From Tetmemena sp. SeJ-2015 (lineage: Eukaryota; Ciliophora; Spirotrichea; Sporadotrichida; Oxytrichidae), in NCBI GenBank assembly GCA_027382625.1, contig JAJKFJ010021523.1, positions 159,537 through 223,536 on the forward strand: 64,000 nucleotides of DNA. Direction: 5' to 3'. The notes under the pieces are model-generated. The model worked only from the letters and a program-made list of their open reading frames with translations, searched no databases and had not been told where the DNA came from. The position numbers and the translations under genes were made by a program. Shown here piece after piece: positions 32,951 to 56,572 of the stretch. Positions within the stretch are counted from its first letter, which is position 1. Every line of letters starts with the position of its first letter.

Positions 32951-32962
32951 CTCAGTTATTAA

Positions 32963-33591
32963 TTGAGTTTATTTATTGCTAACGATGTCAAAATAATTTC
33001 TAAGGTTGAATCTATCCAAGCTTCAAAATTTCTAGACGAACCCTATATCGACTATGAAAATGACGATATCGAAATTATGAAGGATCTAAAATCGAAGAGG
33101 TTGCTCAACGTGCTATTTCATAACAACAACTACTATTTGGCCGAGCATCCTTAAAAACCAGTAGATAAAACAGAAGCATACGACACTAATCTCTGGCTCA
33201 TGCCTAAATTTATGCCCAAAGTAAGATTGAACTGAATTCTTATTCATAATTTTAGAAAGAGATAGAAATTAAAGAAGGGGATACTATCAGGATGGGCAGG
33301 ATCCCATTTAAAATCACTAAGCTTGTTCTTCAGCTTAACAAAAAGATATTTATGACAATTTATTTAGAGTGATGACTCAAGAATAATTTCACAAGACGAG
33401 CCCACTTTAATCAATGAAGGAGAAATCATCTCTGATCACGCAAATTCTCCTTCGAGAGGCAATGCCATAAACACTAGAGTAAACTCTGAACTCCCTTTGA
33501 ATCAAGTCCATGAAAGCTAGGTTAATTTTAACTTTAAATTTAATGATACTGTCACTCTAGATAACTCCGACAGCAGATTTCCAAAGAGTAA
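32963..33591 (+). CDS. scrambled RING-CH/FHA gene, N-terminal MDS block (piece A1)
   Basis: This is the N-terminus of the dispersed gene. MSLFIANDVKIISKVESIQ is followed by a small FHA/SMAD-like fold whose end EIKEGDTIRMGRIPFKITKL is typical of a ciliate protein group carrying FHA and RING-CH domains. A GT-AG intron lies at 33221-33255. An AT-rich frame break at about 33340-33372 is a probable IES before SDDSRIISQDEP. A Ser/Asn-rich linker runs to AAAGAGTAA at 33583-33591. The same 9-mer opens the RING-CH piece at 49554-49562 (minus strand) in the same codon phase. No RING-CH domain is encoded here, so the gene cannot be complete at this locus. Confidence 0.75.
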
Positions 33592-33668
33592 ACAGCAAGG
33601 TCCTAAAATAAAATTTTACAAGTAAAACTAATAGCCTTAATCATTATTTCAGAGGAGTTATAAAATTA

Positions 33669-33697
33669 TGTTTGGATGAGGCAGAGACTGAAGATAA
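33669..33697 (+). other. 29-bp displaced MDS of RING-CH/FHA gene (piece A2)
   Basis: The segment is TGTTTGGATGA, then GGCAGAG, then ACTGAAGATAA. Both 11-mers recur at 49455-49465 and 49433-49443 on the minus strand, where an 11-bp insert replaces GGCAGAG. Inserting this segment there yields CRICLDEAETEDNPFITPC, the first half of a canonical RING-CH motif. Only 7 bases of unique coding lie between the two pointers. Confidence 0.85.
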
Positions 33698-33747
33698 CCT
33701 CACTCATTTTATAACTATGCTAACTTTTACTAAATTCTTAAAAATAA

Positions 33748-35704
33748 TCAAATTTAGTCTAGAATTTTAAGCTTTGCTTGTATAGCATCTAAGTACATAT
33801 CGTTGACTGCAAGAGTTTTTTCAACATGATGAGCAGGATCACCACCCTTATAATTATTTCTTATCAGCTTTTCGTCCATTTTGGCTCTCTATTCCATAAG
33901 CTGAGCTCTCTTCCTAACTTCTTCCAGCTTTTCAAGCTCACTAAGACTCTAGTTGTTCATGTACTTATCAATTACTTTTCCATCTAGGATATTGGGCCTC
34001 TTTCCTTCCATGTCTCTTTTATACCTTTGGTCTTTCAAATAGTCAACTGCTTTTACAGTCTCAATTTGAGAAGTTTTAAGAGAAGTAGGGTTTATTGAAG
34101 AGTTCCTCATCGGCTTTGTTTTCTAGTGGAGTTTGATCTTCTTTTTCATTGAATTGGGAAGATTAGGAGTGCTTGAATTTACGCTGCTGAATTATGGAAC
34201 ACTTTAAGCATGAGACAGTCCGCCTTTTAACATTAATTGATGCATTATGATATTAAAAGGCGCCTTTAATTAATTGGGAGAGTCATTCATAAAGTCTTCA
34301 AATGGTTCATCATTTAATGATGGTAGGGTCCTTCTAGCTGATCGAAGTCTTCGTTATACAGGTTATGTTTTCAAGCTCTATTTAAGAACCATAAGCTCAT
34401 TTCGTTTTGCATCACTGACTTTAGGCCAGTACATCTCTTTAACATACTTCGCATAGTTTCCAACTTTCTCTAAAATGCGCTTCTTTTCTTCTTTGATTTT
34501 CTCTAGCTCTTCCAATTACCTCACTGCATCTTCATCTTAGACTTCGAGATAAGGTTTGTACTTTAGAGATTGCATGTGATCTCGAATTGTATCCTTTTCT
34601 TTTTCTCTCTGCCTCATAATCAAGTGCTCCATTTATCTTCTTTGCTGTTCGTACTATCTTTTGTGCTTTTCAATTCCTAGTTCGCAAACAGGTTTGTACA
34701 TGTCTCTCAAACTTTTTAGTTTCTCCTTTTAGCTCTCAAGTTCTGGCATCTCTATTTCCTACTTGTACTTCTACTCGTATTGCATATATAGAGGTTGTGC
34801 ATTCATAACTTGCTTGACTGTGACAGCTGTTTCTAGTTAGAACCTTCTCCTTTCCTCCTCTTTCTCTTTCATTTTCTAAATTATTTCTTGCTTTTTCTAT
34901 TTGAACTCTATTTCATTCCTCTGTTTTTCTTCCTCTCTCCTTTTGTTTTATTCTTCCATTTCCTTGCTTTGCTTCTCATCAAGCTACTTCTATTTCAATT
35001 ATTTAGCCTTTTCTCGTTCTTCTCTCTCCTTTGCTATGCGCTTTATGAAAGTCTTTGCTTATTTCTCTTATATAACCTGAAAGTGAAATTTATATTTGAA
35101 GTTTTATACTTACTTGATCTTCTTGGTTTATTCTTTCATGGTAGTTTGATACTTGCTTCAAATGCTGCACCAATCCTAATTTCTCATACAAGGCTAGGTC
35201 TTAGTCATAGAGTTCCTCAAAGATGTGCTTCTAGTCAGAAATCAGTTTCATCTTAGCTTCCTATCTCAAATTAAGATTAAAACATATCACCAAACATTCC
35301 CTGGAGTTATTTAAATTCAATTTCTTAATGGATGCTAAATCTTACAAACTCTTTTTTGCTGAGAGCATTTTGGTGTACAGTCAGAAATAGTAATTATTCC
35401 TCTATCTCGTGCCTTTTTAGCTTTCCTTTTATTTTCTTTAGCACTTTTTCAGCAGATATATTCTAAATAAAGTAAAGTAGGAATTCTAGATTACCTTATT
35501 GATTGAGGTAGAGCCATGAATCAGGGTCTCATGCACAAAGTCATTTTCTTTTGATACAACTCCAAATATAACCTAAAGTTTTCAATGTCAAAATATATTT
35601 ACAGGCCCTAGCTCAACATGATTTTCTTGAGCCTCTTTTAACAAAGACTTAAGCTTCTATTTTTTGAGAATTGAATGGCTGTCTTAGTGCAAAACAAGTG
35701 CCAT
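33748..35704 (-). CDS. coiled-coil protein, possibly ciliary
   Basis: Not named with certainty. MALVLHQDSHSILKKQKLKS starts at 35704, and TGA at 33748 follows AIQAKLKILDQI. The protein is almost entirely charged helix and coiled coil (for example KEMEEQNKRREEEKQRNEIE). It has a distinctive conserved-looking block KVGNYAKYVKEMYWPKVSD and an ordered N-terminal stretch LYDQDLALYEKLGLVQHLKQ. The C-terminus contains RNNYKGGDPAHHVEKTLAV. A GT-AG intron lies at 35087-35113, with two more inserts near 35465-35495 and 35575-35605. The block composition resembles axonemal coiled-coil proteins, but this is inference. Its 3' end nearly abuts piece A2 of the scrambled gene. Confidence 0.6.
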
Positions 35705-35838
35705 TTAGTTTTTTATTTATAGAAATTACTCTCTAATGCTGTTTGTTGAGTTAACAATTGATTGGTTAAGTAATTTATAAAGCATAATAGTATTCTAGCT
35801 CATTATCAAATATCATTATTATATAATAAGTCGCAATT

Positions 35839-37897
35839 ATGCTATCTCTCCCTAAACATCTTGGAAGCCTCATTGGTAAATCAGCACTCAGAGCCATGCC
35901 TGGCCTTACTGAGAAGATTCAAGTCACCCCAGAACGTAACAAGGAGTGGGATTACACTTGTCCCTCAGCTATGAAAGTCTTCAACATGACTAAAAAGAAC
36001 GGCTCCTATGGCTTCCCTACTTGCTAGGAAATGGCAAATTCTATTGTCCAGAATCTTGATGAGGAGGCATACTCAGCTATTCAATCAATTGAACTCAAGC
36101 AAGCCGGAAACGGAGACCCTGCAAAGTCAGGATTTTTCCTGAACATCACTCTCAAGAATGAATTCATTGAAAATGAAATCATGAGCATCATCAACTCTGA
36201 ACATCTCTCAGTTAAGCAATCCGAAGAGGAACTTCAATCCAGACATCAAAGAGTTGTAGTTGACTTCTCCAGCCCAAACATTGCAAAGAACATGCACGTC
36301 GGTCATTTGAGATCAACAATCTAAGGAGACAGCATCTGCAGAGTCCTTGAATTTATGGGATATGACGTACTTAGAACTATTTTATAAAACTAACCACTTA
36401 GGTGATTGGGGAACTCAATTTGGAATGCTCATTACTGAACTCAACGACAAACATCCCAATCTTTTGCAAGAGGGTATTGACTTGGGAGATCTCCAAACTT
36501 TCTCTCCACATTTAAAATGTCTATATTCTATCAGCAAGCTAAAAAGAGATTCGATGAGGAGCCTGAATTCCAAGAGAGATCCCGCCTTAATGTAGTGAAG
36601 TTGCAGTCTGGAGACGAATAATGCTATAAGTCTTGGTAATATCTGTGCGAAATCTCTCGTCAGTTGTTCCATAGAATTTACGAAAGATTGGACATCGTCA
36701 TTGAAGAAAGAGGAGAGTCTTTCTACAACCCTTTCTTGAAGCCCTTAGTTGAAGAACTAGAGGCAAAGGGATACCTCAAGGAAGATAATGGAGCCAAGTG
36801 CATTTTTATTCCTAAGCAAAAAATTCCTCTTATGCTCCAGAAGAGAGATGGTGGCTTCAACTACGACACCACTGATCTTGCAGCTCTTCGTTATAGAATT
36901 GACGAGCAGAAGGCTGATTGGCTTATTTACATCTTTTGATGATAGTTTAGTTTTAAATTTCATCACTGACTGTGGACAGGAGCTGCATTTCAGATTAGTT
37001 TTCGAGGGTGGAAAGATTGTTGGAATTTATGACCCTTCTAAAACTAGAATCGACCATATGGGCTTTGGATTAGTTCTTCAAGAATCTGCAGAGGAGGAGA
37101 AAAAAGAAGAGGAAGTTAAGCCAGAGGAGGTCAAAGCACCTGCTGAAGAAGAAAAGAAGCAGGCTCAGCCTAAAAAGAAGAAGGTGGAGAAGATCAAGAC
37201 CAGAGAAGGAAAGAGCACTAAACTTGAGGACTTGCTAGATGAGGCAAAGGCCCGTGCACTTAAGATATTCAAGGATAGAATTGGTGAACAAGAAGGAGAA
37301 GATGGAGCTAATGCAGGAGTCAGCAAGGTGTAAGTTGATGAAAGTTAACTCGACAGCACTGCTGAAATTCTTGGAATCTCCTCAATCAAGTACTACGATA
37401 ATCACAGTATCAAAAGAATTTTACTTATAATGAAATACGACTTAAAGCAAAACCGTATCCAGAACTATGTTTTCTCTTTCGACAAGATGTTAGACCCTAG
37501 AGGAAACACTGGAGTGTATCTTTAGTACATGTATGTGAGAGTTCTCTCTATCATGCGTAAAGGAAATTACAGCCCTGAGATGATTAAGGAATTGGCCAGA
37601 AATGATAAGTTTGTCATCACTTCAAAATCAGAGAAAGAACTTGCGCTTACTCTCTTGAGACTGCCTGAACAAATTGATCTCACCCTCACTGACCTTCAGC
37701 TAAACAGAATCACTGAACTCCTATACTTGATAATAAATATTTACGAAGTAGCTGTGAAGATTGGAGAGTTCTACAGTCACAACAAGGTTATCGGCTCTCA
37801 GGAGGAGAAGTCACGTATTCTTCTTTTAGAGGCAACCAGAAAGATTATGCTCTAGCTATTCACACTTCTTGGAATGAAAACTATTGAAAGAATCTGA
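35839..37897 (+). CDS. RARS1: cytosolic arginyl-tRNA synthetase, interrupted by at least five IESs
   Basis: Class I aminoacyl-tRNA synthetase that charges tRNA-Arg. The HIGH-type motif is [17 protein letters not shown]. Then follow [31 protein letters not shown], the [13 protein letters not shown] block, [20 protein letters not shown], the anticodon-domain [11 protein letters not shown] and the C-terminal [19 protein letters not shown]. IESs lie at 36375-36392, 36500-36529, 36930-36964, 37394-37440 and 37724-37744. Each removal restores an invariant ArgRS block. Odd feature: a Glu/Lys/Ala-rich insert of about 35 residues sits between VLQES and [16 protein letters not shown], where the KMSKS-like loop occurs in relatives. 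The start [10 protein letters not shown] is the first ATG. Confidence 0.95.
36375..36392 (+). other. 13-bp IES in ArgRS, pointer AACTA
   Basis: AACTA at 36375-36379 and 36388-36392. Removing 13 bases joins GYDVLRT to NHLGDWG, an invariant ArgRS block. This is at the very short end for an IES. Confidence 0.85.
36500..36529 (+). other. 26-bp IES in ArgRS, pointer TTCT
   Basis: TTCT at 36500-36503 and 36526-36529. Excision gives [20 protein letters not shown], matching the expected ArgRS sequence. Confidence 0.9.
36930..36964 (+). other. 31-bp IES in ArgRS, pointer CATC
   Basis: CATC at 36930-36933 and 36961-36964 brackets an AT-rich insert with in-frame TGA. Excision gives [13 protein letters not shown], the conserved ArgRS block. 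Confidence 0.93.
37394..37440 (+). other. 42-bp IES in ArgRS, pointer TACGA
   Basis: TACGA at 37394-37398 and 37436-37440. The insert is in frame and open, so gene prediction would translate it. Its excision joins SSIKYYD to [13 protein letters not shown], as in other ArgRS. Confidence 0.88.
37724..37744 (+). other. 18-bp IES in ArgRS, pointer TAC
   Basis: TAC at 37724-37726 and 37742-37744. An 18-bp in-frame open insert; removal gives [14 protein letters not shown] as in relatives. It is invisible to frame-based detection. Confidence 0.75.
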
Positions 37898-38020
37898 GCA
37901 ATTCATTTTCAAAGACTGAAATTATGATTGATTAAATTATTCCAGATTTATTCTCTCATAGTCAAGAATACTAGTTGTAATCAATGATATGAGTGTAAAG
38001 ATATAAAGAGATAAAATAAA

Positions 38021-38698
38021 ATGGGAAACTTAGCTTGTGGAGGAACTCAGAAGCAAGAAAATCATCTTGATGTTTTTCTAAAAGGTACTACATTTCATTC
38101 TTAAGATTATTGTAGCAAACTATCCGATGAGGAAGGATCAATAGATTGAATGTAGCTTTGAATATGATCAAGTAAAAATTACAGATTTAAATTTACATAT
38201 AGGACTTCTCTGGGGACCAATAAATCATTTAAATAGTCTTTAAAATATTTATTAAATCGTGAAAGCACAAAAATGCATGCCTTTTGAGGATGACACTACT
38301 AAAGCAGTAGAAAAAGTTGAGACACTTCAAAAATAGAAAGAAAAGAATAGAACTCTGGAGTACTTCATTCTCTTATCCTCAGAACTCAATTCAAACATTG
38401 GAGCTCAGTCAACTTCTCTTCATCCTTGCAATTCAAACATAGACTACCAAAGTAGAATTGAAGGCATTTAAAGTGCAAAAGAAAAAACAATCTCAATAAG
38501 AAAGGTAGAGAGCGAGCTCATTCACAGCACTATCGAGGATCTTGGACCCGGACTTCCTAAGTAAATAATTGAAGTTATTATATTTATAGACCTGCTTCAA
38601 GATTCAGTCAGAGTCCAAATGAATCAGGCAGATTTAAAAATGAAAGCATCAAGAAGAAAGGAGCATTGCCTAAGTATTCATACAAAAGTGGATTGTGA
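38021..38698 (+). CDS. small protein with MGNLAC N-terminus
   Basis: Function not recognised. It starts MGNLACGGTQKQ, a myristoylation/palmitoylation-like start. GT-AG introns near 38073-38106 and 38551-38590 join NYPMRKDQQIECSFEYDQ, a helical part TTKAVEKVETLQKQKEKN, and ELIHSTIEDLGPGLPKPAS to a basic Ser-rich tail ending YSYKSGL before TGA 38696. A further intron or IES lies at about 38172-38260. The length is roughly 190 residues. It sits just downstream of the ArgRS gene on the same strand. Confidence 0.6.
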
Positions 38699-38917
38699 GA
38701 TTTTCATTCAATTTTATTTTTATTTACTCATCAAACTACCCATTTCAATTTGCAATAAAATTTAAAAACATAAATATTTTTGTAAAATCTTATCTTCTTT
38801 GCAATTTTAAATTAACTATATTTCTAAAAGCAAGGATATGATTTAGATTTCGAAATAAATTTAATAGTTCACTAATATATCAAACTAACAGATTCTTAAT
38901 TATTGATCTGATACTGT

Positions 38918-41270
<2,353 letters not shown>

Positions 41271-41278
41271 AGTAGTTA

Positions 41279-41306
41279 AAGTAAAGTAAAGTAAAAGTAA
41301 AGTAAA
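41279..41306 (+). repeat. microsatellite, AAAGT-type
   Basis: A short run of GTAAA/GTAAAA units (plus strand) just beyond the likely 5' end of the kinase gene. Confidence 0.7.
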
Positions 41307-41394
41307 ATTTTAGGAATATAATTAATAATCAATTTCATTAAATCAGCACTTTCGTACTGTTTATAGAAATCAGTTACTATCCTATGTAATCTAG

Positions 41395-43585
41395 TAGTTA
41401 ATATTCATGGTGTTGTTTATGTTTTACCCAAGGGCTCCATGAAAGAGAACAGAAGTGGTCTTTGTGGTCTCAATGATCTTCTTCTTGCCTCTGTTGTTCT
41501 TTTTCCTGTTAAATATAAAATGTTCTTTGACTTGCTATTTGCTTTTTCAAGAAACAGAGTGGGCTGGTTGTCTAAGTTAACCACCTAGATGTCAGTGATG
41601 TTTTGGTTTCTCGTTAGTTTCTATATCGCATGCTAAAGTCTATTTTAGTCTTCTTTGGTGTCTGCAGATAATTAATATAATTTACACAGGCTGATCATTT
41701 ATAATTTGACCACTCTCTTAAGAAGCTTTTACATGCGATCTCCCAGTATTACTCAATAAAAAGCAAGTTAATAGATAAATTGAAAACTTTATTTATGCTT
41801 AAATTTAATTATAAATATTTTATAGCAATATCGAAGTAGAGATTAAATTAAAAGTAGTACTCTTTGATCTTTGTCACTTCTTGCTGTATGATCTCAACTG
41901 TAGGCCCATTTCTATTGGAGGAGTTACAATACATTAAATAATATTTTAAAAGGATATATGTTATAGCTGGGCCCTAACTATAATAAAACTTTATGAGTTT
42001 ATTTCCTTTTGTTTTTCATTTATCAAGTTGATTTCAATAGAGTGTCTTTTGTTCTTGACTATCTGCTGGTCCACTTGTCTTTGCAACTTATTCAATATCT
42101 ACCCTATGTTTGGATAAAACAAAACAGATCCTGCAAGATTTAGCTGATGTCTATCTCATTATTCTGAAGCTTCACCTCTTCACTTACTTTTAAAGGCTTT
42201 GCATCTTTCTAAACCTAAAAATTGAAATGGGAAATATAATCCTCATCATCATCCTCTTCTGAATTGCTAGTTGTCTGTTTATTGTTAGTCTTCTGAATAG
42301 GCTTGAACTTAGACTTAGCAAATTATTTATATAGCAGATATGCCTATTCATTTATGTTTTAAATTGATTCTTCCTTCTTTCATTTCTATCCATGGCCTGT
42401 CCTTTTTCACCTTCACTTTCCTCGCTGCTAGATTCTTTAAGTAAGTCGACATAGTTATTCTAGGATTTGAGTATTTCCCTTGAGGTTTGAACTTGTCTGT
42501 GGGAGCTTGACCTACCACTCTTGTGCATACTTCTTGCAAAGCTTTTGAGTTTCTTGTCTGAGAGATCAGCGTATTTTCCGCTATTTCTGGACTTCTCCTC
42601 TTCCTCACCTTATTCCTGAACTGAGTCGTTGGAGTAATTATGCACCATGTCGTGGGATCTCTTTAATATTTTGTCGCTTTCACTCACGCTGCTGCTTACA
42701 TCAAAGTTATAATACAAATATAAATCATTAATCTTTCAAGCAGATAGAGAATAAGCAATTTATTTGCAATATTTCTAAAGAATATTTCTCAAAATTGATT
42801 ATAATTTTTAAAGTTCTATAGATTATTGATCTGGTTTTAGGTTTCTGCTACTTGTCTCTCCTCATCTGGAGCCTTAGCGTTAAACAGTTCAATAGGCTTG
42901 AAATTTCTATTCTTCAAATCTTCATCATAGTTAAGCTTATTCTGCAAAACATTAAATTGGGCGAACTGTTGGAACATAATAGGTGTGGTAGTTTTTCTAG
43001 GCATGCTTAATTTCATATTAGTTCCAACTCCACCTGACGGAAGAAACATGCTCTTATCTAAGTTCTAAACTATGTGACTCGCTCTATGATGGTTTTACAA
43101 CACAGATCGATCTGAAAATTAGTTGCCTCTCAAAAACTACTTACTCTCATCCTCATTTACCAATTTATCATTTTACTAGTTACCTTCATTATTCTTTTTT
43201 AAATGATTAGGTAACACACAAATGGTAATTCATAATTATAAAAACAACTCGATTAAGTTTATGTTGACAAGAGTTATAGATTTTCTATGTACAGTTTTGA
43301 GAGCGTGTCTTGACTTCAAAATATGCCTCAAATTCTAGTCTAGTTCATTTGCTTCTTCATTTTAATTTGTTTGCAAAAGACCAGCTGCTTTTTTATTTCC
43401 AGTTCGGTCAAAAAGCTTATCAGTTTATTTTTTACCTGCCAATCCCTTTTAATTTTCATCCGCTGCTGTCTCAATTGAGATTTATGGAATTTGTTACGAT
43501 GAACAACAAAAGCTACGAAAGTAAGATTTACCAACTTTTTCGTCTTGAACATATTTAATGTCAGATCGGAAAGATTCTGACTCAA
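41395..43585 (-). CDS. coiled-coil / Ser-rich protein in several pieces
   Basis: Not recognised. Minus-strand coding blocks in order: a basic helical N-terminal part near 43585-43340 (RQQRMKIKRDWQVKNKL), LDKSMFLPSGGVGTNMKL near 43060, a Ser/Arg/Glu-rich region near 42660-42350 (DLLKESSSEESEGEKGQ), an acidic stretch SNSEEDDDEDYISHF near 42260, coil ILNKLQRQVDQQIVKN near 42070, TVEIIQQEVTKIKEYY near 41900, and the C-terminal TKTTSVLFHGALGQNIN near 41440. AT-rich breaks between blocks (42690-42830, 41940-42000, 41760-41850) are probable IESs. Treating this as one gene is inference from strand, order and spacing; the true start is not identified. Confidence 0.45.
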
Positions 43586-43647
43586 TTTTAGATTAATTGA
43601 GGGTTATTGTAACCCCATTATTTTTGTGATAGCTTACTTAGTCTTTT

Positions 43648-45000: not shown

Positions 45001-45046
45001 TTATAGCTTTAATTTATTAATTAATGTAAATAAGAAGTTAATCTAT

Positions 45047-45845
45047 TCATAGTTAATCATCATCAGCAGTAGTATAAACATTTGTGCTCACTACTTAGCC
45101 AACCACTCCTCCAAATTGGAAACTTTTGTAGCCTTTAATTTCCTCCACTTTCTTGAACAGTCCTTCCTTGGCATATATTTAATCTAACTCATCACTCGTG
45201 CAGTTGCAACTAGTTATAATGAATATTCCTCCTTTCTTCAATCTGAATCTTACTGATCTTGCATACGCATCGTTGTCTAACTCTGCGTTCATCACTACCA
45301 CATCGAAGGTACCCTTGTCGTGAATAATATAATTCAAATCAAAATTAATAAGAATATATTATAAATATCGTAAAAATATTTATCTTTGTTTTGTCTTAAT
45401 TTATTCTTTGAATATCATACTAAGCCTGTTCTAGATGATCAAAAGCATTCTGAAATTCAAATTCTATGGTGTGAGCATACTCAAGAGATTCTTTAATAGT
45501 TTGAGCTAACTTAGCATAAATATTTAAACTTGATTGAAGACTCACTGTAGTCTATGCCTTTAAGATTAGTAAACCCTTTCTTGCAAGCTTAAACAAAAAC
45601 ACACCGTTTCCCGTACCCACATCTAATACCCATGGCTGATTTGATGAGATATCGTAATTCTTGAGGATATACTGGATCGTCTTTTTCTAAACATCTTCTC
45701 CAAACCACACTTCTCCCTCGTCACCAAACTCCTCAAAGTTCTTAAGCTCCATTTCAAAATTCTACTGCCAGTACTCTTGCTTTGACAGTTTAGACTCATA
45801 GTCTTCCTTTTATTACTTCTCCTAAATGCTTTCACCTCCTTCCAT
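45047..45845 (-). CDS. EEF1AKMT2: EEF1AKMT2 (METTL10/See1)-like lysine methyltransferase
   Basis: Seven-beta-strand SAM methyltransferase that modifies a lysine of eEF1A in other eukaryotes. Signature blocks are KQEYWQQNFEMELKNFEEFG, EVWFGEDVQKKTIQYIL, motif I VLDVGTGNGVFLFKLARKG, KGIDYSESSIKLA, HDKGTFDVVVMN, GGIFIITSCNCTSDEL and the C-terminal FQFGGVVGQVVSTNVY. An AT-rich interruption at about 45320-45420 between the Rossmann half and HDKGTF is an IES or intron. TGA at 45047 ends after TTADDDQL. It lies 47 bp from the NOSIP ATG on the same strand. Confidence 0.9.
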
Positions 45846-46028
45846 TTCTATTATTTATTATCCTCAAAATCACAAATTTTTGCTTAAAAGATTACATGGA
45901 CGGTTTTAATTCAAATTCATTTTTAAAAACATTATTTTATAAAGTCATAATATACTTATTTATAAATTTAAGTTAATTATAAAGTTGAAATATATTTTAA
46001 TTGTAAAATAAAATATCAATAAATTTAA

Positions 46029-47778
46029 ATGGGAAATTGTTAGTGTGAAAGAGAAGATCAAGAGTAGTACGAGACTTATGCCCACCAACGAAAACAACTT
46101 CCAGTAATGAATGAAAACTAAAACAACCAGGACCTTAATATTGATATTTACAAATCCTTTTATTAATATGATGATAAAATTGATTAAATAATTATATTTC
46201 AATGTAAATTAATTGATTAAATAATTAATTGGAGTGATAACGAGTACGATGTGGATTTGATGATGAGTGAGTTAAACCTGCATCCAAAGACTCATCTACT
46301 AGATTCCCAACCCTAGCTGTTCAAACACCAAAATGGTAAGCCAAATTACTCAAGTTAATCTAAGTCATTTCAATAAAATGGAAGCCTCAGAATTGGAAGA
46401 CTCCCAAGATGGCAGGAGTCCAGCCACACAAAATAGTCTCACTCTTACTCAAACTTCAAGAACATAGTATCTCAATACCAACCAAAATGGCCAACCCACT
46501 GAATTCAATCAAAATGAGATGAGTCCATATGAAAAAACAAAACCTTACTCTCATAGACTCAATAACAAACAGCAAAGCTAAAATATCAATAACTACCAGT
46601 TTCCATTATATTTATTAGTCAGAAAAGACTGTAGTCAATTTTTAAAATATAAATAACAAAAGCAGCACTTCAAATTCCTAACTTGATACAATTGTTGATG
46701 AATCTAAAATTAGGATTTACCAACAACCCTTATCAATTGACTATCGCAATATTGAAATCCTAAATAGCAAATACGATCCAATCTTATTTCAAGGAGAACT
46801 CTTAAAACTAAAGCCAGGACTAAAATATGAGTTCACCCCAAGATGGATTCAAGTGACAAATAAGGCTTTACGTTATTACAAGAACAGATGGACTTAAAAT
46901 AGTTCCCTCCAGAAACCTTTAAGCGCTGTTCCAATAAGAGCAATAAAACACATAAATCCTTTGGAATAAGATATTACTCATGTTCATGCTAATTGCTCCA
47001 CTAAATACTAATTCAATTTCGAGATAGTTTTGAAGCAGGAATTCCTAGATCTATTTTTAGACCCCTACTATGACATCATTCTCTCCAAGGACTAGGAAAA
47101 GCTAATAATCAGTAATTTAAAAAAGAAATAAACCTTAAGCCACTTTTAAGAATCAAATATCGATTACTATAGTGATTCAAATTAATTTATAAAGGATTAA
47201 AGATAAGTACCCAATTATACTTATTTTATAATCCATTCATTCTTAAGTTTAGTAAAAGTTATTTATGACCTAAATCTGAATTAATTTGTGATCCTTTGAG
47301 AAAGGAGATTTTGGTGCAGAACTATTTACAAGACTCTGAGTCTGGATACATAAATTTTCATATTGATGATGGGTTGAATTAATCTTAGAAACTTCAAAAA
47401 AGCTAATTCGGAGTAAACTCAACCATCATCGGTGAAAATAAGCAATAAAGAATGGAAATGACATACTAGCTAAATATGACAAATTTAAGTAATAACGTTT
47501 CCTAGAGGTTTAGTCAAAATCCTTTACTAGACTTTTCTTAAAATTAAAGCTCAACCTCCTAATTTTCTAAGTTAAGAAACAAGTTAGGTTCTAATGGAAA
47601 CAGCCCAGAGCACTCTAAATAAAAGAGACAAGCTAAGGTAGGAATGAGCAGTAGGGAGGAAAGCTGGTTTTTAATGGATAAGAGACTGATTTTTGGAACT
47701 GATGATAAAGACGTTTACAAAGAGTGGATTAATAGCTTTAACGATATTATTTCTATAATTAAGAATGAGCAGTGCTGA
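46029..47778 (+). CDS. PH-domain protein with MGNCQC N-terminus
   Basis: It starts MGNCQCEREDQ, strongly suggesting N-myristoylation plus palmitoylation. A 33-bp IES (46179-46211) with a 16-bp pointer interrupts the N-terminus. A Ser/Gln/Asn-rich linker follows, then a split PH domain: GELLKLKPGLK, RWIQVTNKALRYYKNRWTQ and VPIRAIKHINP at 46790-46970, and the final strand/helix REESWFLMDKRLIFG...EWINSFNDII at 47655-47760. A long Ser-rich insertion (LLDFSQNQSSTSQFS) separates the two halves. A 19-bp GT-AG segment near 46337 or an indel changes the frame. It probably acts at membranes through the lipid anchor and PH domain. Confidence 0.75.
46179..46227 (+). other. 33-bp IES with 16-bp pointer
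   Basis: ATTGATTAAATAATTA occurs at 46179-46194 and 46212-46227. Deleting one copy plus the spacer (33 bp, with in-frame TGA) joins YQYDDKIDQII to NWSDNEYDVDLMM. This is a long pointer for so short an IES. Confidence 0.92.
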
Positions 47779-47868
47779 GAACTCAGATTATTTATAAGTT
47801 ATTTTCCCTGTTATAGTTAGAAATAATTGTTATAAATACATGTATGAAGCTAAAATGAGCAATTAATC

Positions 47869-48291
47869 TCAATTTTTAATTTACTTATTGTGCAGGGGTA
47901 ATATTTGTTAGATAGACTGATAAGTGTCTTGGTTTTAATCAGTCGGAAATTTGACGATGCTCTTGGCTTCTTCAAAAGCAGAGTTTGAGTATATCCTCTC
48001 ATTATCAAAGTTAATCTATGTATTCGAATATTGATGTTAGTTTTTGATTGAGTTCTTTTTTGACTGGATGGGAGGGAGGTGCCCTTAGTCTAATTAAAAA
48101 TAACCTCTGTGAGTATTATACTCTGTAAACACTTGAGATTCATTAGCTTGAATTGTTCTTAATGAATTTTCATTCAAACCATAACTATTTTTAGACGCTC
48201 TAACTTATTTTTCTTAATTTAACTCGTTGACAGATATAAGATCATCTTAAATATCTGCATTTAGAGATAGGTTTCCTTGAGCAATAATTCA
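47869..48291 (-). CDS. 3' part of a Gln/Asn-rich gene, 5' end missing
   Basis: Open on the minus strand (TAA/TAG=Gln) from about 48291 to TGA at 47869-47871, giving roughly 140 residues with no recognisable domain. Typical text: LSLNADIQDDLISVNELNQE and NSAFEEAKSIVKFPTDQNQD. The frame closes upstream with TGA and no ATG, so the 5' MDSs must lie elsewhere or behind an IES. Confidence 0.5.
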
Positions 48292-48689
48292 TAAATTACA
48301 TTTATAGCTTTTTAATATAATTTTAATACATTGTTTATTAAATAAATTATAATTTACATTAAAAATACAAACATAAGGTACTTCTTTGACCATTAAAATA
48401 CTACACCTCTGAATCCTTATCACTATTCCTGAATTTTCCCCATATAGCTTTTAATTGCACTCAAGGGAAATATAGAAATTCCTTCTGCTTTTATAATAAT
48501 TGAAATGGTGTTTTGTCTCTTGATATTTCATAGAGTATACAATCAACACTAAAATCCTAATTTTAAAACGAAACACAGTAAGTTTTTTTTATAACTTAAT
48601 TATGATTAAATTGTCCTTGAGCGTAATTGTCGATGTTAAAATATTGCTAGGTAATAAATGGAACATAAAACTAATTTTGGTAATGTTAG

Positions 48690-48960
48690 TGAAATTATCA
48701 GGATAGTCAACAGCAAGTCTATGATCAGTATGAACAGTCATTATGCTGTTGTCACGATTATGATAAGAAGACTCATTTTAATCTTCCTTACTTTTATCAA
48801 TATGCTTCACATTTTTGTCCTTTTACTGCTAACCAATCACACTTTTTAAATATGTGGGGAACTTGCTCGTCACATTCGCATAATGATCGTACAGTTCTAT
48901 TTTACTTCCAAGATTTATTTACATAATTATTAGCACGAAAACCTGTTTTCTTATCTGATG
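48690..48960 (+). CDS. Tyr/Gln-rich coding island, possible C-terminal MDSs of RING-CH/FHA gene
   Basis: A plus-strand open stretch begins YQDSQQQVYDQYEQSLCCC. Near 48884 it contains DRTVLFYFQ, which resembles the segment (GRTVL-type) that follows the FHA domain in relatives of the scrambled gene. Piece B5 of that gene, on the opposite strand only about 90 bp away, ends LPIQT at ACTGA. The two share TGA in the same codon phase, giving LPIQTDRTVLFYF. Three bases are weak evidence, and assignment to that gene is tentative. Confidence 0.35.
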
Positions 48961-48975
48961 AAAAAGCACTTTCTT

Positions 48976-49562
48976 TCAGTTTAAATGGGTAAACTTTCGT
49001 CTCTGGGAACAAGAATTGGCTACTCTATCTTCACAAAGGTTCCAAATTTATGTCTTATTTTATCAGAAATAGTGATGTCATTTGAGACTCTTCTGCCATT
49101 TAATTTGGGTATTATATAGTTTGGCTGCTTGTAGTTTAGCAAGTAAATAGGCTTTCCTTTACTCTTCAAGCTTATATTGTCTATAGTTTACTTTATTTTA
49201 TTAAAGTAATTACTTAGTTCTAATGCTTCTTTGCAGAGTTCACAAGCCAGTTCCTCCCAGTAGTAAGAATACACTCCGTCTAGTTTTTAAGAAATTCTCT
49301 TTGAATCCAACCTATCAAATTATTTCATGAGATGCTACTTACCATTCTCTTAAACACTCCAGATGGATAAATTTCATTGATCCTGAACATTAAAAATAAT
49401 ATTTAATGCATTTGCAAGGAGTAATGAAAGGATTATCTTCAGTTATAGTATTTATCATCCAAACATATTCTGCAAGCTCTTCCTGATTCAAGCTTACTTT
49501 ACATATCACTTAATTATAATTCAGACAAAACTTCAACTTTATAATTTATCTTATTACTCTTT
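48976..49562 (-). CDS. scrambled RING-CH/FHA gene, inverted central block (pieces B1-B5)
   Basis: Minus-strand pieces: B1 49455-49562 (ends GRACRICLD), B2 49409-49443 (TEDNPFITPCK), B3 49114-49391 (CSGSMKFIHLECLREW, a 31-bp intron at 49312-49342, then YYWEELACELCKEAL to KQPNY), B4 49063-49098 (GRRVSNDITISD), B5 48976-49050 (KFGTFVKIEQPILVP). Gaps are 11-21 bp AT-rich IESs. B2 and B3 join on AATG. The other gaps each lack coding that is found elsewhere: A2 fits between B1 and B2, C1 between B3 and B4, C2 between B4 and B5. RING-CH ubiquitin ligases act with E2 enzymes; FHA domains bind phosphothreonine. Confidence 0.85.
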
Positions 49563-49924
49563 AGATCTGAGATAAAAATACTCGGATATTAAAATATCAG
49601 CATAAATTATCATTAAAAGCCTTGGCTATCAAGATTTCCTAAAATAAAATATGAAATTTATTTAATATTCTTGAATACTGTCTCTTGCTCCACCAAGTCT
49701 CTTGTCGTGACTAGCATTCACTCCTCTGATATTATTTTTTTATAATTTTAATACCATTTAAATTGTTAATAAGCTTTAATTAAATCTAAATAGATTTTCA
49801 CAATATAAAAAATCTATCTAGACTCTATAAATTGTGCTAGTTGTTTAGTTCATAGCATTTTATAAGAATTTACAAATTATAAATTGAACTTGGAAATTGC
49901 GAAATAATCTCTAATCAGTCAGAT
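49563..49924. other. AT-rich spacer, no gene seen
   Basis: No supported coding. It is AT-rich sequence between the RING-CH block and the next plus-strand start at 49925. Confidence 0.4.
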
Positions 49925-52315
49925 ATGGAAAGACAATAAGCAGCCAACTCAAATTAAACAACAAGAGAGGCAACTGAACAAATTCAACTCAATATCAATC
50001 CCTAACACCTAACAAGGCCAACTGCCTCTCACGGATACAGGCAGCCTATCTCAGAACCCTTAATCTAACCTGAATCTAATAGGACGAGACTTAACCCCAG
50101 AAGAAGAAGGAACGAGGAAAGGGCTTTGGCCCAAATTACGACTGAATTTGAGTAAAGTTTTGCAGGTGATTTTACTACAAATTCACACCTATCCTCATCT
50201 AATCCAAGAATTCTCAACCGATCATTTTATTTCCTTACATTTCTTTTTGGATCTTCATAAACATTTAATAACTTGTTATTCTCATATTGCTTAATATGGA
50301 ATATTTTACAACCCTTATATGCACGAAAGAGCTGCTCTTGAAGAAGAGAGAATAGACTTCATTCTAAATGAAGAAGAATATAAACTTCATATTTTAATTT
50401 TTTAGACTACGATTAAGGAGAAAATTTGCAAGACTAAGAAAGCACCAATTTACATGAGCCAAGAGAGTACCCTAGAGGTTACTTAAGTTCTCAGAGATCC
50501 AGCAGAGAAACTTAAAACCTCACAAGAATATTGCACTCTTTAAGTCATTTAACAACTTATTTTTTTAACCTTTTGGAAATAAAGAATATATCTATACAAA
50601 TTATAGCCTCTTATACCCAACTCTTCATAAATCATATCCTTCTTAATTTTTATTTTGAAGATTAACTATATTTTTATTAATTTTTTAATGAAAGAGATAT
50701 ATATGCCTTTCCTCCTTATGACAAACTTAAGATTTCAATATTTATCATCCATTATTTTTAATATTGATATGATTTTTTATATTAAAAATATTATAAATGA
50801 AGAGGTTTAAATCTATATGGACAATATTTGTACTATTTTGATTTAAGGAGTGTACCTGAAAGTATGAGTGATTACACAACCCAAGAATAGGCATATTAAG
50901 TTGCAAACAGAGACCACAGCAGTGAGGAAAGCCTCTAACTCTTCAGAGATTACGCATAGCAATATGTAATCTCAGTCAGAACTCAAGAACCCTCTACACT
51001 TCAAACTTCAAGCAATAATTTTCACCAAGATCGATTTTAAAGCCCATCAAACAATTCCTTAACACTTCACAGAAATACCACACACAATAGACTCCAAATC
51101 ACTAGCTCATAAACATTTATATTAAAACTACTACTGAGGAGTTAGAGTCAGTCCCATTCTCCAGATATCTTTAAATGAGCAACTTCAGGAGGTCAAGGGA
51201 ATCTCTGCAATTCTATCAAGATTCTAATCACGACAGCAGTGCTTCAAACCCTTAAAATATTCAAGAAGAATAACCTAATATTCAACAAAACATAAATAAA
51301 GAAATAAATTATTTCACTCATTTAAAAAATAGGATCACATTTGTACATCTTTAAAATCCAAGTATAATAATCCTTATAATAGTTTTTGGGTAAAATTGAG
51401 CAATAATAACAGTTCTGGAGATGATTTGGGCTTATCAAGTGCAACCCTAAATTAGTTGAATAGACTGCGACTAGAGTACTTCAGGAACTCAGTTAAAGTG
51501 TTTAAGAAATCGATTCCCGATTTTTGGGTTGAGATTCTGGAAAGTGATTCCCCCTACATTTTTCAAATTATTGGGGCCTATGGCTCTCTAGCTGCTCTTC
51601 TCTATTCTAGACTACAGACTCTATGCATCGAGCAATCGGCCTACATAATCGAGCTCAAGCAGATTCATTATTTTATTTCAAAACTGTCTGAGCCTTAAAT
51701 CCCAAAATACTAAGCTTGAAGAGAATGCAATAAGGTTCAAAGAGCTCAGATTTGTAATAGAACTGCTGGATGTGTTCCACTATTTCTTTTGCCTCGCAAA
51801 GAGAGACAGAGAGTCTAGAGAGAAGCTAGAAACTATCATGAAAATTTTCCCACCAATCAAAGAAATCAAAGCCTCCCTTAAGCACTTCTACAATCATCCA
51901 GATGTAAATTAAACTCTCTCTTACTCATTTTTAGGACATGATTATTCTAAAAATAGACAATAATAATTCTTTTGCTGATAAGATTTATCTAATTGAATTA
52001 AAAACACTCTGAATATAATTTTATTTGTGAAATATCTACAAGATTGTTTTGGAAATATTGTATCGGTATAATTATGAGTTCAAAGGCCCAAACTTTAACT
52101 ACATTAAGAAGCAGATTATTCCATTTGCTAAGAGCTTCTATACTACCATATCTCAACAAAGCTTTAAAGAACTCGTTGAAGTTAACAGTTATGCCAAGCA
52201 ATTTCATCCTAGTAACTTTTTTACCTACATTTTTAAACCCTTTTTTAGAGCTAATTCATTACGAAAACAAGCAAGAATATCACGCAAATTATATTTTCCT
52301 ATTTTAATTTAATAT
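49925..52315 (+). CDS. Gln/Ser-rich multi-MDS gene of unknown function
   Basis: Not recognised. It starts MERQQAANSNQTTREATEQ at 49925. Coding islands continue on the same strand: PYMHERAALEEERIDFIL (50311), DYDQGENLQDQESTNLHEP (50406), MSDYTTQEQAYQVANRDHSS (50864), SNFRRSRESLQFYQDSNHD (51178), then a structured domain EYFRNSVKVFKKSIPDFWVE, IIGAYGSLAALLYSRLQTL, FKELRFVIELLDVFHYFFCL and, at 52050-52310, ILYRYNYEFKGPNFNYIKKQ. The islands are separated by AT-rich inserts of 11 to about 300 bp. The IES at 50224-50308 (79 bp, pointer ATTTTA) is frame-proven. Whether all islands are one gene is inferred from order and strand. Confidence 0.5.
50224..50308 (+). other. 79-bp IES, pointer ATTTTA
   Basis: ATTTTA at 50224-50229 and 50303-50308. 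Excision joins RILNRSF to YNPYMHERAALEEE in frame. The insert is AT-rich. Confidence 0.8.
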
Positions 52316-52606
52316 CAAATTTGAATTCATTTTATCTTGGTATTTACAAATTTAATATGTACATATGTTTTTAATTGCATTTGTAGATTATTTAGATTTC
52401 TACGAGAATTAAAGCGTGCAATTGTGTGGTGTATCTGGAGGCGTAAAGAAGGGAGATTTCTTATTATGATATAATTTTGAAGCAAGATTGTTAACATTAG
52501 TAGCAAGTTTATCGATTGTATATTACTCATTTTAATAACCCATTTAACAAATAAACCCTCACTGAATTAGAATATTTTGATGAGTATTGTTAAATTAAAT
52601 ATTTAT

Positions 52607-53230
52607 AATGGAAGAAACTAATTATTCATAGCAGTAATACAAACAGAATGGGGCTTCTACAAATTCATAAGCTCAATCATTCAACAAGGATGTGCCAAAT
52701 GGACGGTAGTAAACACTCCAAACTGAAACTACTTCAGTTGGAGGATAATTACTCTTATTTAAATATATGATAAGCCAGTCTAAAACCTTACAATTACTCC
52801 ACAAGCAGTGCAAATAAAACAGACGACTATGGAGCAGATGTCTCATCAAATGTAAATCCTCCAGGAACTATTCCATAATATATATATATATATATATATA
52901 TATAGTTTATATCTTAATAAATAGCTTATCTTTAAATCAAACATTAAACATAAGGTATAGATTTGTATGAGAATTTAAATAAAAAAAGAGAGTAAATTTA
53001 TATTTAAAGCAGTTAAACAATAGTGCGAAGGATATTTCAGATATATCAACTCTTCCTGTAAATGCACAATTATCAAAGGAACCTCATCGAAGAGATCAAC
53101 TTGGCACTCAAATAAAATCTGGCTATAAAAAACACAAAGTCACCTTCCTAGACTAAATTTAAAAGAAACCTGTTGCTGAAATATACATTGTTGAATCGTA
53201 TATAATATTTAGTTACATAAATTAAATGAA
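52607..53230 (+). CDS. Gln/Ser-rich protein with KVTFLDQI C-terminus
   Basis: Not named. It starts MEETNYSQQQYKQNG at 52607. Coding islands: NYSTSSANKTDDYGADVSSN (52785), then at 53020-53200 STLPVNAQLSKEPHRRDQL and KSGYKKHKVTFLDQIQKKPV, ending AEIYIVESY. The last block resembles a conserved tail I associate with ciliate proteins of unknown function. The repeat AATTACTC (52746-52753 and 52785-52792) flanks an insert, so an IES is likely, although the upstream frame is ambiguous. A (TA)n tract at 52879 lies in another eliminated or intronic segment. Confidence 0.5.
52879..52904 (+). repeat. (TA)n microsatellite
   Basis: Perfect TA dinucleotide run of about 13 units, inside a non-coding insert of the 52.6-53.2 kb gene. 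Confidence 0.9.
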
Positions 53231-53251
53231 GAGATTAAGAGTTAGGATAAA

Positions 53252-54430
53252 TCATTTCCAACCTTTTGGTTTAGATATATAATCAAATGATTTAGAGAGG
53301 TCATATTACCCTACTGCAGGCAGATTTTTTGTTTACTTTTGAACTATATCCGTGAACTTGTAATTCTTTGCCTTTGAAAGAAAAGAACTCACTTTAGGGG
53401 CTTACGTTTTTTTCCATGCATTTTCTGTTTGATAATTATTCATTTTGAATATATTTATTTATGTGATATGTTAGTTGAACATTGTTAAAAATAAGTTTAT
53501 TCAAAATTTGATTATTATGATTTTTATATCTATTTTAGAAGAATAGGTTAAATTATTAAATATAAAAATAAGATGATAAGTGACTGGAGATGGGTCATTT
53601 TTCTTGGTATTGTCTCTTTTCTTTTGTTCCTTTTCCATATTAGATTCTGCTCTTATTTTAAATGCGGATGTCCTTGGCTTAAAAAGTTCCTAATATCCAT
53701 TACCATTCAATAAATTTACAATCTTAGGAGTAGGATAATGCCCAGGCACCTGCGATGAGGCATACATAGCTTCATCCATGCAGCTTATTCTGTCTAATGA
53801 TCTAAATTATTAGTATGATGATTTAATGATCTTACTGTTTATAGCAGCCCTTAATTTTAGACTTTAGATCTGAATTATAATGGACCCACACCTGGAGTTT
53901 ACTTATGAAGCTTTTATAATGTCTTCCGTATATACATCTCTTAAATAAATTATAATTCAAAATATTTCTTGAATAAATTGAAATATTAGTATTTAAAATA
54001 ATGTACTCTTTTCTTTTTATAGATGGATAAGTTTCTCTTCATGAGTAAGTTGAGTTGCGTCTCGTATTTGTCTGGCCCAGGTAAAGGCCCATTCTTCTTC
54101 ATTACTTGGCTTATGAAATCGTTATTGATAGACTTAGAAATCACAAAGGTCCTTGGTTTTTCAATATGTGCATAATTATCAGGCACGTAGTAGCCATCTA
54201 TTCCAAACTAAGATTAATTCCTTGATTATCTTATCATGTCCTTCACACTGATGTTTGTTGTGGATTCTACATTTATTAAATATAAAGTTTCTTACAATTA
54301 ACAAGTTCTTTCAAAGCACTTTAAGCAAAACGAGAGCCTGGATTTTTTAATTCAGTTACTGATTTCACTAAAGATTGAGAGGATCTTATTCTTCCTCCAT
54401 CCCCATTATTCAAATAATTTATAATTTATT
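53252..54430 (-). CDS. PG-rich-repeat (STPG/ODF3-like) protein
   Basis: Sperm-tail PG-rich-repeat type protein; relatives are microtubule inner proteins or axonemal components. Minus-strand islands in order: NPGSRFAQSALKEL (54340), GPLPGPDKYETQLNLLMKRN (54080), HKQTPGVGPLQFRSKVQNQG (53890), ASSQVPGHYPTPKIVNLL (53750) through NDPSPVTY, and YKFTDIVQKQTKNLPAVGQY down to FDYISKPKGWK before TGA 53252. The last join is proven by a 144-bp IES with pointer TTATCA (53430-53435 and 53574-53579), giving SPVTYQTENAWKKTQ. Islands are in linear order, not scrambled. No ATG precedes the first island. Confidence 0.75.
53430..53579 (-). other. 144-bp IES, pointer TTATCA
   Basis: TTATCA (minus strand) at both ends of an AT-rich insert with in-frame TGA. 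Excision joins NDPSPVTY to QTENAWKKTQAPKV. Confidence 0.85.
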
Positions 54431-54466
54431 AAAAATAAAACTTAAACTTGTATTTTCTTTACAAAA

Positions 54467-55708
54467 TCACTTCTTAAAGATTCGATAATTTTGAAAATAG
54501 CAATATTTATTAAATAACTAAATATTTGACTATGAATGAATTTGAGGAAGGCTTAAGTTGTGTACATCAAGGCTGCTTAAGCCCATCTCATTTCTTGATA
54601 TGTTTAGAGCATTCTTTTACAAATTTTTATATGGATTACTAGTAACTATGAGGGACTAGTTCAGATTTATTTTGCTTGGACTTAAGTTTGCAATGCTGCT
54701 GTTTAATGAATCCATTTTATTTTATTCTGATTCTCATACATTATTTCTACATTAATATCATCAGGTAAATTAATACTTTTTGAAATAAATTGAAATGATT
54801 CACGTTGCAAAGAAATGAAGCACATCGATTCTTTATTGATTCGTTTACTTGCTTATAGTAAATATGTTGGTACAATTCGTGCAATATATTTTATAGGCTC
54901 CTTCTGGTACCAAGAGGTCTTGCTAGCAGTTTAGGCATTTCACAAAAGTTTTCTACAGTAGCATTAGTTGAATGAAATATCTTACGTTTTAGTTATTGTT
55001 GATATGAGTTTCAACAACTTCATGACACTAATAGCACATCACTTAATTAAATTAAGCTTTGTATAACAGTCGGCTTTTGCAATTCCAACATAAAACTTCT
55101 TTCTATAAGTGCACACTATCAATATTTTAATTCTTACTATATGTCTATCTTTGGACTCTGTGCCGATATTCAATGTTCCATCAGGCATTTTAATGATTAT
55201 TGGATTAAGAAACTCTTCTTTGGAGTAGTTATAGTCGTGATCTTATTTTTCTTCCTCTTCACTACTTGCAGGCTCATACTCAAAAAACTCATCCTCCTCT
55301 TCTTCTACTTCCTATTGTCTTCTCTATTGAGCAAGCATTCTTTCTCTAAGAGCCAGCTACTACTGTCGCATTCTTTCTATTTGGGCTCTAACTTCCGACT
55401 CATCCGGAGAATCCGATCTCTAAAGAGGTGGAGGAGATTGCTACATTAAATTCTTAACCTTATATTTGGATTACATTTTGGTTTCTTCTTTGAGTCTAAG
55501 GAGCTTAGCTCTAAGGAATTTGAGCTCTTCTGTTTTAAGATCCTCCTTACCTCCTTTGTTGTTGATCAGAGGCATCTAAATTAGCACTCCCATTATTGTT
55601 AGAAGATACTTGTGAGGAGTTTTAGTTAGAAGAATAACTTCGGTCTTCTTGATTATGATTCTATATATTCAAAAATTATTGCTCTTGGTTTCGTTAGCGA
55701 GAAGCCAT
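54467..55708 (-). CDS. Gln/Glu-rich protein with LSD1-type zinc ribbons
   Basis: It starts MASRQRNQEQQFLNIQNHN. A Gln/Ser-rich region, PPPLQRSDSPDESEVRAQ and a Gln/Arg coil run into an acidic stretch (EEEEDEFFEYEPASSEEEE). Next come zinc-ribbon-like repeats: CWNCKSRLLYKAQFNQVMCY...C and CLNCQQDLLVPEGAYKIYCT...C. The second fits the LSD1-type CxxCxxxLxxPxGAxxxxCxxC pattern. The C-terminal island SLNSSIANLSPSKINLN runs to TGA 54467. A GT-AG intron lies near 55100-55141, and AT-rich breaks near 54970 and 54730-54800 are probable IESs. A role in nucleic-acid or protein binding is inferred from the zinc ribbons only. Confidence 0.6.
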
Positions 55709-55794
55709 TGTGATCTTATTATATTTCCAAAATTATATTTGTATTTGATTAATTTATGTAAATAAATAAATTAAAGCAGCCAAAAAATAAGAGA

Positions 55795-55884
55795 TATATG
55801 GTTTTGGACTCAGACATAGAATGTCTTTCTAAAGCGATCCACGTTATAGTGTTTTCAGTTAAGAACGACTTCTACATTGGCAGA
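55795..55884 (+). CDS. scrambled RING-CH/FHA gene, piece C1
   Basis: A 90-bp segment from pointer TATAT (55795-55799) to TGGCAGA (55878-55884). It encodes VLDSDIECLSKAIHVI...NDFYIGR, the first strands of an FHA domain. TATAT joins it to the end of B3 (minus 49114-49118) and TGGCAGA to the start of B4 (minus 49092-49098), both in frame, giving KQPNYMVLDSD and FYIGRRVSNDI. Confidence 0.8.
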
Positions 55885-55888
55885 TATT

Positions 55889-55978
55889 CTATTTCTGACA
55901 TTAGTGTTTCCAGATAATAGTCAGCAATCAAATTAAGAGAAGGCAAAGTTTACTTCAGTGATTGTGACTCTAAATTTG
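55889..55978 (+). CDS. scrambled RING-CH/FHA gene, piece C2
   Basis: A 90-bp segment from CTATTTCTGA (55889-55898) to TAAATTTG (55971-55978). It encodes ISDISVSRQQSAIKLREG and KVYFSDCDSKF, the FHA core with the S-R pair. The same 10-mer and 8-mer end B4 (49063-49072) and begin B5 (49043-49050) on the minus strand. Joining gives DITISDISVSRQQS and DSKFGTFVKIEQP with no gap. Only 4 bp separate C1 and C2. Confidence 0.88.
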
Positions 55979-55983
55979 AATTA

Positions 55984-56572
55984 ATAGTTCCATGAATATG
56001 TTTTCGTGCTGGATGAACTGTCTCTCTTCCATAAATCTTTAAAGGATGAATGCTCTATTCTTAAAGCATAATTGTATGAAAATTATAATCAGTCTATAGT
56101 AAATAATGAGGCCTTCAAGCTTAAGCTTAAAAATCCTATATAGAAAAGAAAAATCCCTAGCCTTGATCAGTCTAATCAAAGATAAACTTAAGACAATCAA
56201 GATCATTCCATTTCATAATACACCAAAAGCCAAACCTAGGTAGATTAATCAGAATATCAAAAGTAGATATCCCCTATCAAAGAAATCAAATCAAAATAAG
56301 ATAAACTACATACTCTCTCAAAGAATAAGTTCTTCCAAAGCCCTCACTAAGATTAAGATGATGCCAATTAAGATTTATAGAAAAACATACCAGACGAGGA
56401 ATAAATTTATTAAATCAGACCAAAACACAAAAGATAAACAAACTTTTAAACACAATTACATTAAAACAGATATAAAAATAAAACTAGCGATGTAGTGTAT
56501 GATAATCAAGAGTTCTAAAGTCATAACTAATTAAACTAGTTTTATTCCCCTCAAGATTATGAATTACAATGA
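55984..56572 (+). CDS. Gln-rich 3' gene fragment
   Basis: A clean open frame of roughly 195 residues (TAA/TAG=Gln) to TGA 56570. It begins with a helical part (VFVLDELSLFHKSLKDECSI) followed by a Gln/Asp/Lys-rich tail (QRQTQDNQDHSISQYTKSQT). No domain recognised and no credible start: upstream it runs straight into piece C2. Its 5' MDSs are therefore missing here, or it is a further part of a scrambled gene. Confidence 0.5.

Follow-up and report, generated by a model that had tools for sequence, protein, structure and literature searches.

In the spirotrich ciliate Oxytricha, genome rearrangement is guided by template RNAs, and pointers mark the places where the segments are joined (PMC9797194, PMC5940158; these and the other sources cited are drawn on in part). 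Scrambling concerns 29.2% of 18,111 Oxytricha chromosomes, and of the scrambled ones 21.4% show an inversion and 14.7% an inversion combined with an insertion (PMC10901763), and the paralogy of scrambled genes, their odd-even patterns and the sliding of pointers have already been described (PMC9797194). Here we analyse a RING-CH/FHA gene in a 64,000-nucleotide stretch of DNA from Tetmemena sp. SeJ-2015, hereafter the window (positions 159537-223536 of contig C2601, in an assembly of 146.2 Mb and 5213 contigs). The gene is very probably a scrambled micronuclear (germline) gene that is unscrambled in development. Germline unscrambling with an inverted block had been proposed in a preliminary description of the window, and the pieces, their order and orientation, the pointers, the frame, a protein profile and a paralogue agree in making it the best reading.

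The kind to which this gene belongs is known among the scrambled germline genes of spirotrich ciliates, with an odd-even pattern and an inverted even block. As in the odd-even genes of Oxytricha and Tetmemena covered in the parts of PMC9797194 and PMC5940158 used here, odd and even segments form separate clusters, the even cluster is reversed and micro-segments occur, and the pointers fall within the usual range of 2-20 bp (PMC9797194). Unlike in the genes covered there, the odd segments of the window gene occupy two loci, A and C, with the inverted even cluster B between them, and the permutation recurs at seven junctions of a paralogue.

Nine segments at three loci

With TAA and TAG translated as glutamine, as for all the window genes, the gene runs from an ATG at 32753 to a TGA ending at 56572, a span of about 24,000 bases, as nine scrambled segments at three loci. 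Their germline order is 1 3 / -8 -6 -4 -2 / 5 7 9, with A on the plus strand, B inverted and C on the plus strand: the even segments 2, 4, 6 and 8 are confined to B, 1 and 3 lie in A, and 5, 7 and 9 in C. The distance from A to B is 15 kb and that from B to C is 6 kb. The model contains eight scrambled junctions, all eight bearing a direct repeat (pointer) of 5-13 bp, two ordinary internal eliminated sequences (IESs) and six introns predicted from DNA rather than RNA.

32753..33591, plus: segment 1 (A1), from the start codon ATG at 32753 to pointer AAAGAGTAA at 33583-33591, placed by frame and by homology to protein P0001
32781-32826, 32955-33004, 33221-33255 and 33325-33367, plus: predicted introns of segment 1
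32853..32882, plus: predicted ordinary IES of 30 bp within segment 1, pointer ATAA
33592..33668, plus: germline-limited spacer between segments 1 and 3
33669..33697, plus: segment 3 (A2), a 29-bp micro-segment for the RING-CH residues CLDEAETEDN; the 13-bp pointer here begins at 33667
48845..49050, minus: segment 8 (B5+B6), from pointer TAAATTTG to pointer TTTAAA, encoding GTFV...CFFIRQENRFSC...LYDHYANVTSKFP
48897-48922: predicted 26-nt intron of segment 8
49063..49098, minus: segment 6 (B4), from pointer TGGCAGA to pointer CTATTTCTGA, encoding RVSNDITISD
49114..49443, minus: segment 4 (B2+B3), encoding the last part of the RING-CH domain, with CELCK
49312-49342: predicted intron within segment 4
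49388-49408: ordinary IES of 21 bp within segment 4, pointer AATG
49455..49562, minus: segment 2 (B1), from pointer AAAGAGTAA to pointer TATGTTTGGATGA
55795..55884, plus: segment 5 (C1), encoding the start of the FHA domain, from pointer TATAT to pointer TGGCAGA
55889..55978, plus: segment 7 (C2), from pointer CTATTTCTGA to pointer TAAATTTG, FHA ISDISVSRQQ...DSKFG
55979..56037, plus: germline-limited spacer between segments 7 and 9, holding GTTTTCGTGCT and GAACTGT, both also in segment 8
56038..56572, plus: segment 9 (C4), from pointer TTTAAA to the stop TGA at 56570-56572, a Q-rich C-terminal tail

In macronuclear development the segments would be joined in the order 1 to 9 with the B block inverted, so that the even segments come to alternate with the odd ones from A and C. 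The reading frame suggests that a single pointer copy is retained at each junction, and the spacers, together with the DNA of roughly 21 kb that separates the loci, would be excluded from the product. By analogy with Oxytricha, RNA templates may guide the joining. The outcome would be one continuous gene for a RING-CH/FHA protein of 637 amino acids, and the joined model is indeed open over this length, with no internal stop. In the joined product Pfam recognises RINGv at residues 239-300 (51.2 bits, cut-off 21.6) and FHA at residues 365-410 (42.8 bits, cut-off 20.7), both above their cut-offs. When three pieces are scored singly, RINGv drops from 52 to 31.6 bits, with one piece above the cut-off, and FHA from 44.1 to at best 18.1 bits, with all pieces below it. 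The GC content is 0.223 in 229 nt of excluded DNA (six spacers and two IESs) versus 0.317 in the segments (2246 nt). One spacer departs from this AT-richness, the 59-nt one in C, at 0.34.

The preliminary description had ordered the pieces as A1, B1, A2, B2, B3, C1, B4, C2, B5 on the strength of eight named repeats. All eight are present at the loci given for them, the order is confirmed, and the repeats keep the frame at every join, restoring CRICLDEAETEDNPFITPCKCSGSMKFIHLECLREW and the FHA core. Two of these repeats have to be redefined: TGTTTGGATGA is a real pointer but a longer one, of 13 bp (TATGTTTGGATGA), and AATG marks the ordinary 21-bp IES inside block B instead of a scrambled junction. 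At the 5' end, the start proposed at 32963 (LSLFIANDVKIISK) falls in the predicted 50-nt intron at 32955-33004. The longest homologue placed the missing N-terminus upstream of A1, where the reading from ATG 32753, once the 30-bp IES is removed, gives SWFWDKEQSHRLFNF, matching TWIWEKEQSHRLFNF of homologue P0001; this IES is in-frame, has a GC content of 13% and is missing from P0001. At the 3' end, the extent first given was one junction too short. Homologues, paralogue and profile carry the coding sequence of B5 beyond that limit to 48845, where the additional pointer TTTAAA joins it to C at 56038 and leads to the C-terminal tail.

Homology supports the same arrangement. A search with the joined protein (a 401-aa query) retained 444 proteins at E <= 1e-3 among 3447 candidates, and 120 of these were listed. 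The best homologue among the matches listed, P0001, shares 42% identity across 89% of the query, and the family is that of ciliate RING-CH/FHA proteins, in which the RING-CH domain precedes the FHA domain and the homologues are collinear. No Oxytricha or Stylonychia name appears among the 120 listed of the 444 matches, an absence of little weight as most rows are nameless. A profile that holds no window sequence was built from 60 homologues: of the 120 listed, 119 had a suitable length, and the first 60 of these were taken. Its members were gathered with the joined protein as query, yet each is collinear in itself. Against 1991 six-frame pieces of the window, this profile gave five matches at E < 0.001 (3e-22, 2e-13, 4e-12, 6.5e-10 and 7e-4), one of them in C and the other four in B, and the next best, at 0.02, lies in A. 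The matches interleave along the profile, with columns 81-109, 102-137 and 138-190 in B, 175-255 in C and 244-304 again in B, the C match slotting between the last two B matches. The joined model, as scored before the N-terminus was added, reached 294 bits.

The chance level of the pointers was estimated in the register that the reading frame dictates, against 800 shifted registers per junction as control and with a correction for 11 in-frame registers. Corrected p values lie between 0.014 and 0.027 at six of the eight junctions, and the eight together give a Fisher p of 4.7e-6, bounded by the number of control registers. TATAT and TTTAAA are not significant singly and rest on frame and homology. 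Free windows of 30 x 30 nt gave p = 3e-8, an optimistic value because the window positions had been picked by the pointers. These repeats also bear on whether the pieces could be joined in RNA by trans-splicing rather than in DNA. Ordinary GT-AG introns are predicted elsewhere in the gene; a GT donor with an AG acceptor fits none of the eight scrambled junctions, however, and direct repeats are unexpected for splicing, so we hold this to be the most improbable of the alternatives considered.

Within segment 8, reading B straight through with the 26-nt intron keeps the frame and yields YDHY..V..KFP, a motif also present in the paralogue and the homologues. An extra junction from B5 to C at GTTTTCGTGCT (48932-48942 / 56000-56010), followed by GAACTGT, was rejected for breaking the frame. 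CAGAGGAGT occurs both in the A spacer and in a stretch upstream of B1, but was likewise discarded as a pointer because, judged by eye, the frame is lost. That stretch, 49570-49740 on the minus strand, reads RGVNASHDKRLGGARDSIQEY in one frame and could belong to another scrambled gene. Comparison of the A spacer with B, including the part upstream of B1, gave p 0.07.

A paralogue with the same permutation

Contig C2963 (113,918 bases) holds a paralogous RING-CH/FHA gene, likewise at three loci:

23730-24996, plus: A', N-terminal piece
30231-29360, minus: B', block with RING-CH and part of FHA
53600-54447, plus: C', FHA core and acidic tail

Its order is 1 3 / -8 -6 -4 -2 / 5 7, with the tail in C', and its plus/minus/plus layout is that of the window gene, at distances of about 4 kb from A' to B' and about 23 kb from B' to C'. 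Seven junctions are made through pointers of 17, 8, 12, 14, 9, 9 and 9 bp (p = 1.1e-7 with the shifted-register control used for the window gene), restoring CRICLDDTEEEANPFITPCKC and the FHA core, and the 29-bp A2 micro-segment has its counterpart at identical codons. Over 192 aligned RING-CH/FHA codons in three blocks, the two proteins are 75% identical, with lower N-terminal matches of about 53%. Across the same codons pN is 0.175 versus a pS of 0.81, with synonymous sites saturated, which argues for selection on both joined products and for an old duplication.

Further copies of parts of the paralogue are found in the assembly. Contig C3935 (19450-20500) carries a copy of the C' locus, 99.3% identical and with all four C' pointers present, and contig C638 (300-2400) a copy of the A' locus, 90-94% identical, which retains the A2' micro-segment and differs by one substitution in the first pointer and one synonymous change in the micro-segment. 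Both copies are perhaps alleles or recent duplicates.

An assembly error, in which a contiguous gene had been broken and misjoined with one block inverted, could be suspected since a single assembly lies behind the layout. Each scrambled break nevertheless has its matching repeat (p < 0.03 singly at six of eight), and the paralogue, on another contig, displays the identical permutation with different repeats, which argues strongly against such an error. The copies of C' and A' on C3935 and C638 carry equivalent pieces as well, and we consider misassembly very improbable.

About as improbable is the possibility that A, B and C are fragments of separate paralogues or pseudogenes. The genome does have other RING-CH/FHA genes, at C3555:5304-5843 and C2138:48365-48931, each with a single stretch that matches 182 of the 241 residues of the query and is apparently unscrambled (two TGA lie inside that of C2138). 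The assembly was searched with 1506 joined bases, a query that included the later-rejected C piece and stopped short of the N-terminus and most of the tail. Seven matches were listed: six fall within A, B and C, and the seventh, at 69%, is on C2963. With just one of those listed outside the three loci, A, B and C do not appear to come from separate complete copies. Nor did the search find a contiguous copy of the gene in the 146-Mb assembly, where such a copy would have shown. A contiguous copy differing at the junctions, or separate complete paralogues, had been named in the preliminary description as findings that would overturn it. In addition, the B and C profile columns are complementary rather than repeated, and the joined product of both genes is under strong purifying selection. 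A 24-base C4A4 telomere repeat has 21 matches, on three contigs (C204, C2542 and C2828), which suggests that the assembly is mainly germline DNA.

Several points weigh against a gene unscrambled in development. The case is built on germline assembly sequence, with introns predicted from the same DNA. TATAT and TTTAAA are short, with p values of 0.46 and 0.14. The 26-nt intron of segment 8 competes with an inserted 22-bp C piece, although the latter breaks the frame. Finally, none of 19 shared words of at least 7 bp could be assigned to the eighth junction of the paralogue, the one leading to its C-terminal tail.

Age and origin of the scrambling

Comparison of the window with C2963 gave 39 protein matches at E <= 0.01, of which 18 come from the gene proper or from the strand opposite to it. 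Four further matches are collinear and on the same strand around A and A':

28754-29098 in the window, 15445-15933 in C2963: E 0.008, weak
29421-30116 in the window, 16619-17239 in C2963: E 1e-8
33751-35157 (minus) in the window, 25382-25669 (minus) in C2963: E 1e-11, 33% over 87 aa
35238-35528 in the window, 27060-27641 in C2963: E 0.002, weak

The gene at 33751-35157 lies about 50 bp from segment 3, and its counterpart adjoins A'. Three more matches pair 15.9-17.1 kb of the window with 7.2-8.1 kb of C2963, strand and order being conserved (best E 3e-6), and the remaining 14 of the 39 are scattered; among the 39, no genes common to both B-C intervals in order were seen. The collinear neighbours and the identical permutation together favour the duplication of an already-scrambled germline block over two independent scramblings, and suggest, on this comparison, that the permutation is older than the duplication giving the two genes. 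The neighbour similarity may, however, be of low complexity or family-wide.

Junctions 2-3 and 3-4 stand at equal codons in the two genes, and junctions 4-5, 5-6 and 6-7 are shifted by about 7-15 codons. In the duplication-and-decay model (Gao et al. 2015, as described in the part of PMC9797194 used here), spacers are decayed copies of the segments that were replaced. One of ten spacer-segment pairs tested in the two genes behaves as this model predicts: segment 8, intron and exon, aligns over 63 columns with the C' spacer that follows segment 7 (p 0.004). For the remaining nine pairs p lies between 0.11 and 1.0, the ten jointly give a non-significant Fisher p of 0.13, and four control pairs gave 0.37-0.80. 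This test set aside two window pairs with 4-nt and 11-nt spacers; a separate scoring of seven window pairs that includes them gave p 0.07-0.88, with two controls at 0.06 and 0.33. In the window itself, GTTTTCGTGCT and GAACTGT in the spacer between segments 7 and 9 are a possible decayed copy, not significant alone. The decay of segment copies into spacers is therefore only suggestive. We would tentatively entertain, with somewhat less than even confidence, a history in which an already-scrambled block was duplicated long ago, junctions 2-3 and 3-4 remained fixed, junctions 4-5, 5-6 and 6-7 slid, and the C spacer retains decayed remains of segment 8, a fossil of an origin through duplication and decay.

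Embedded genes and significance

Other genes lie inside the A-B gap of the window, an arrangement that may resemble the nested (Russian doll) loci of Oxytricha described in part of PMC5940158. Ten open reading frames were tested, and seven, all between A and B, match Pfam at E <= 0.01 (five of the seven above the cut-off), identified by Pfam matches only:

35671-37894, plus: arginyl-tRNA synthetase domains, in order; the gene is apparently unscrambled
39.8-41.0 kb: protein kinase
44.0-45.0 kb: RING protein

The window also holds an exon of mitochondrial EF-G, whose best named match is in Halteria grandinella (77%).

In a check of the literature that was not thorough, we found no discussion of a paralogue pair with one shared permutation. 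Taken together, homologues and pointers let a scrambled gene be read from the germline alone, without a macronuclear genome. Should the pair share a single scrambled ancestor, one could measure within one genome, with no need for a comparison between species, how junctions move, pointers change and spacers decay. With such a scrambled ancestor, the unscrambling machinery would also have to separate two loci of like layout, perhaps by differences in their pointers or templates.

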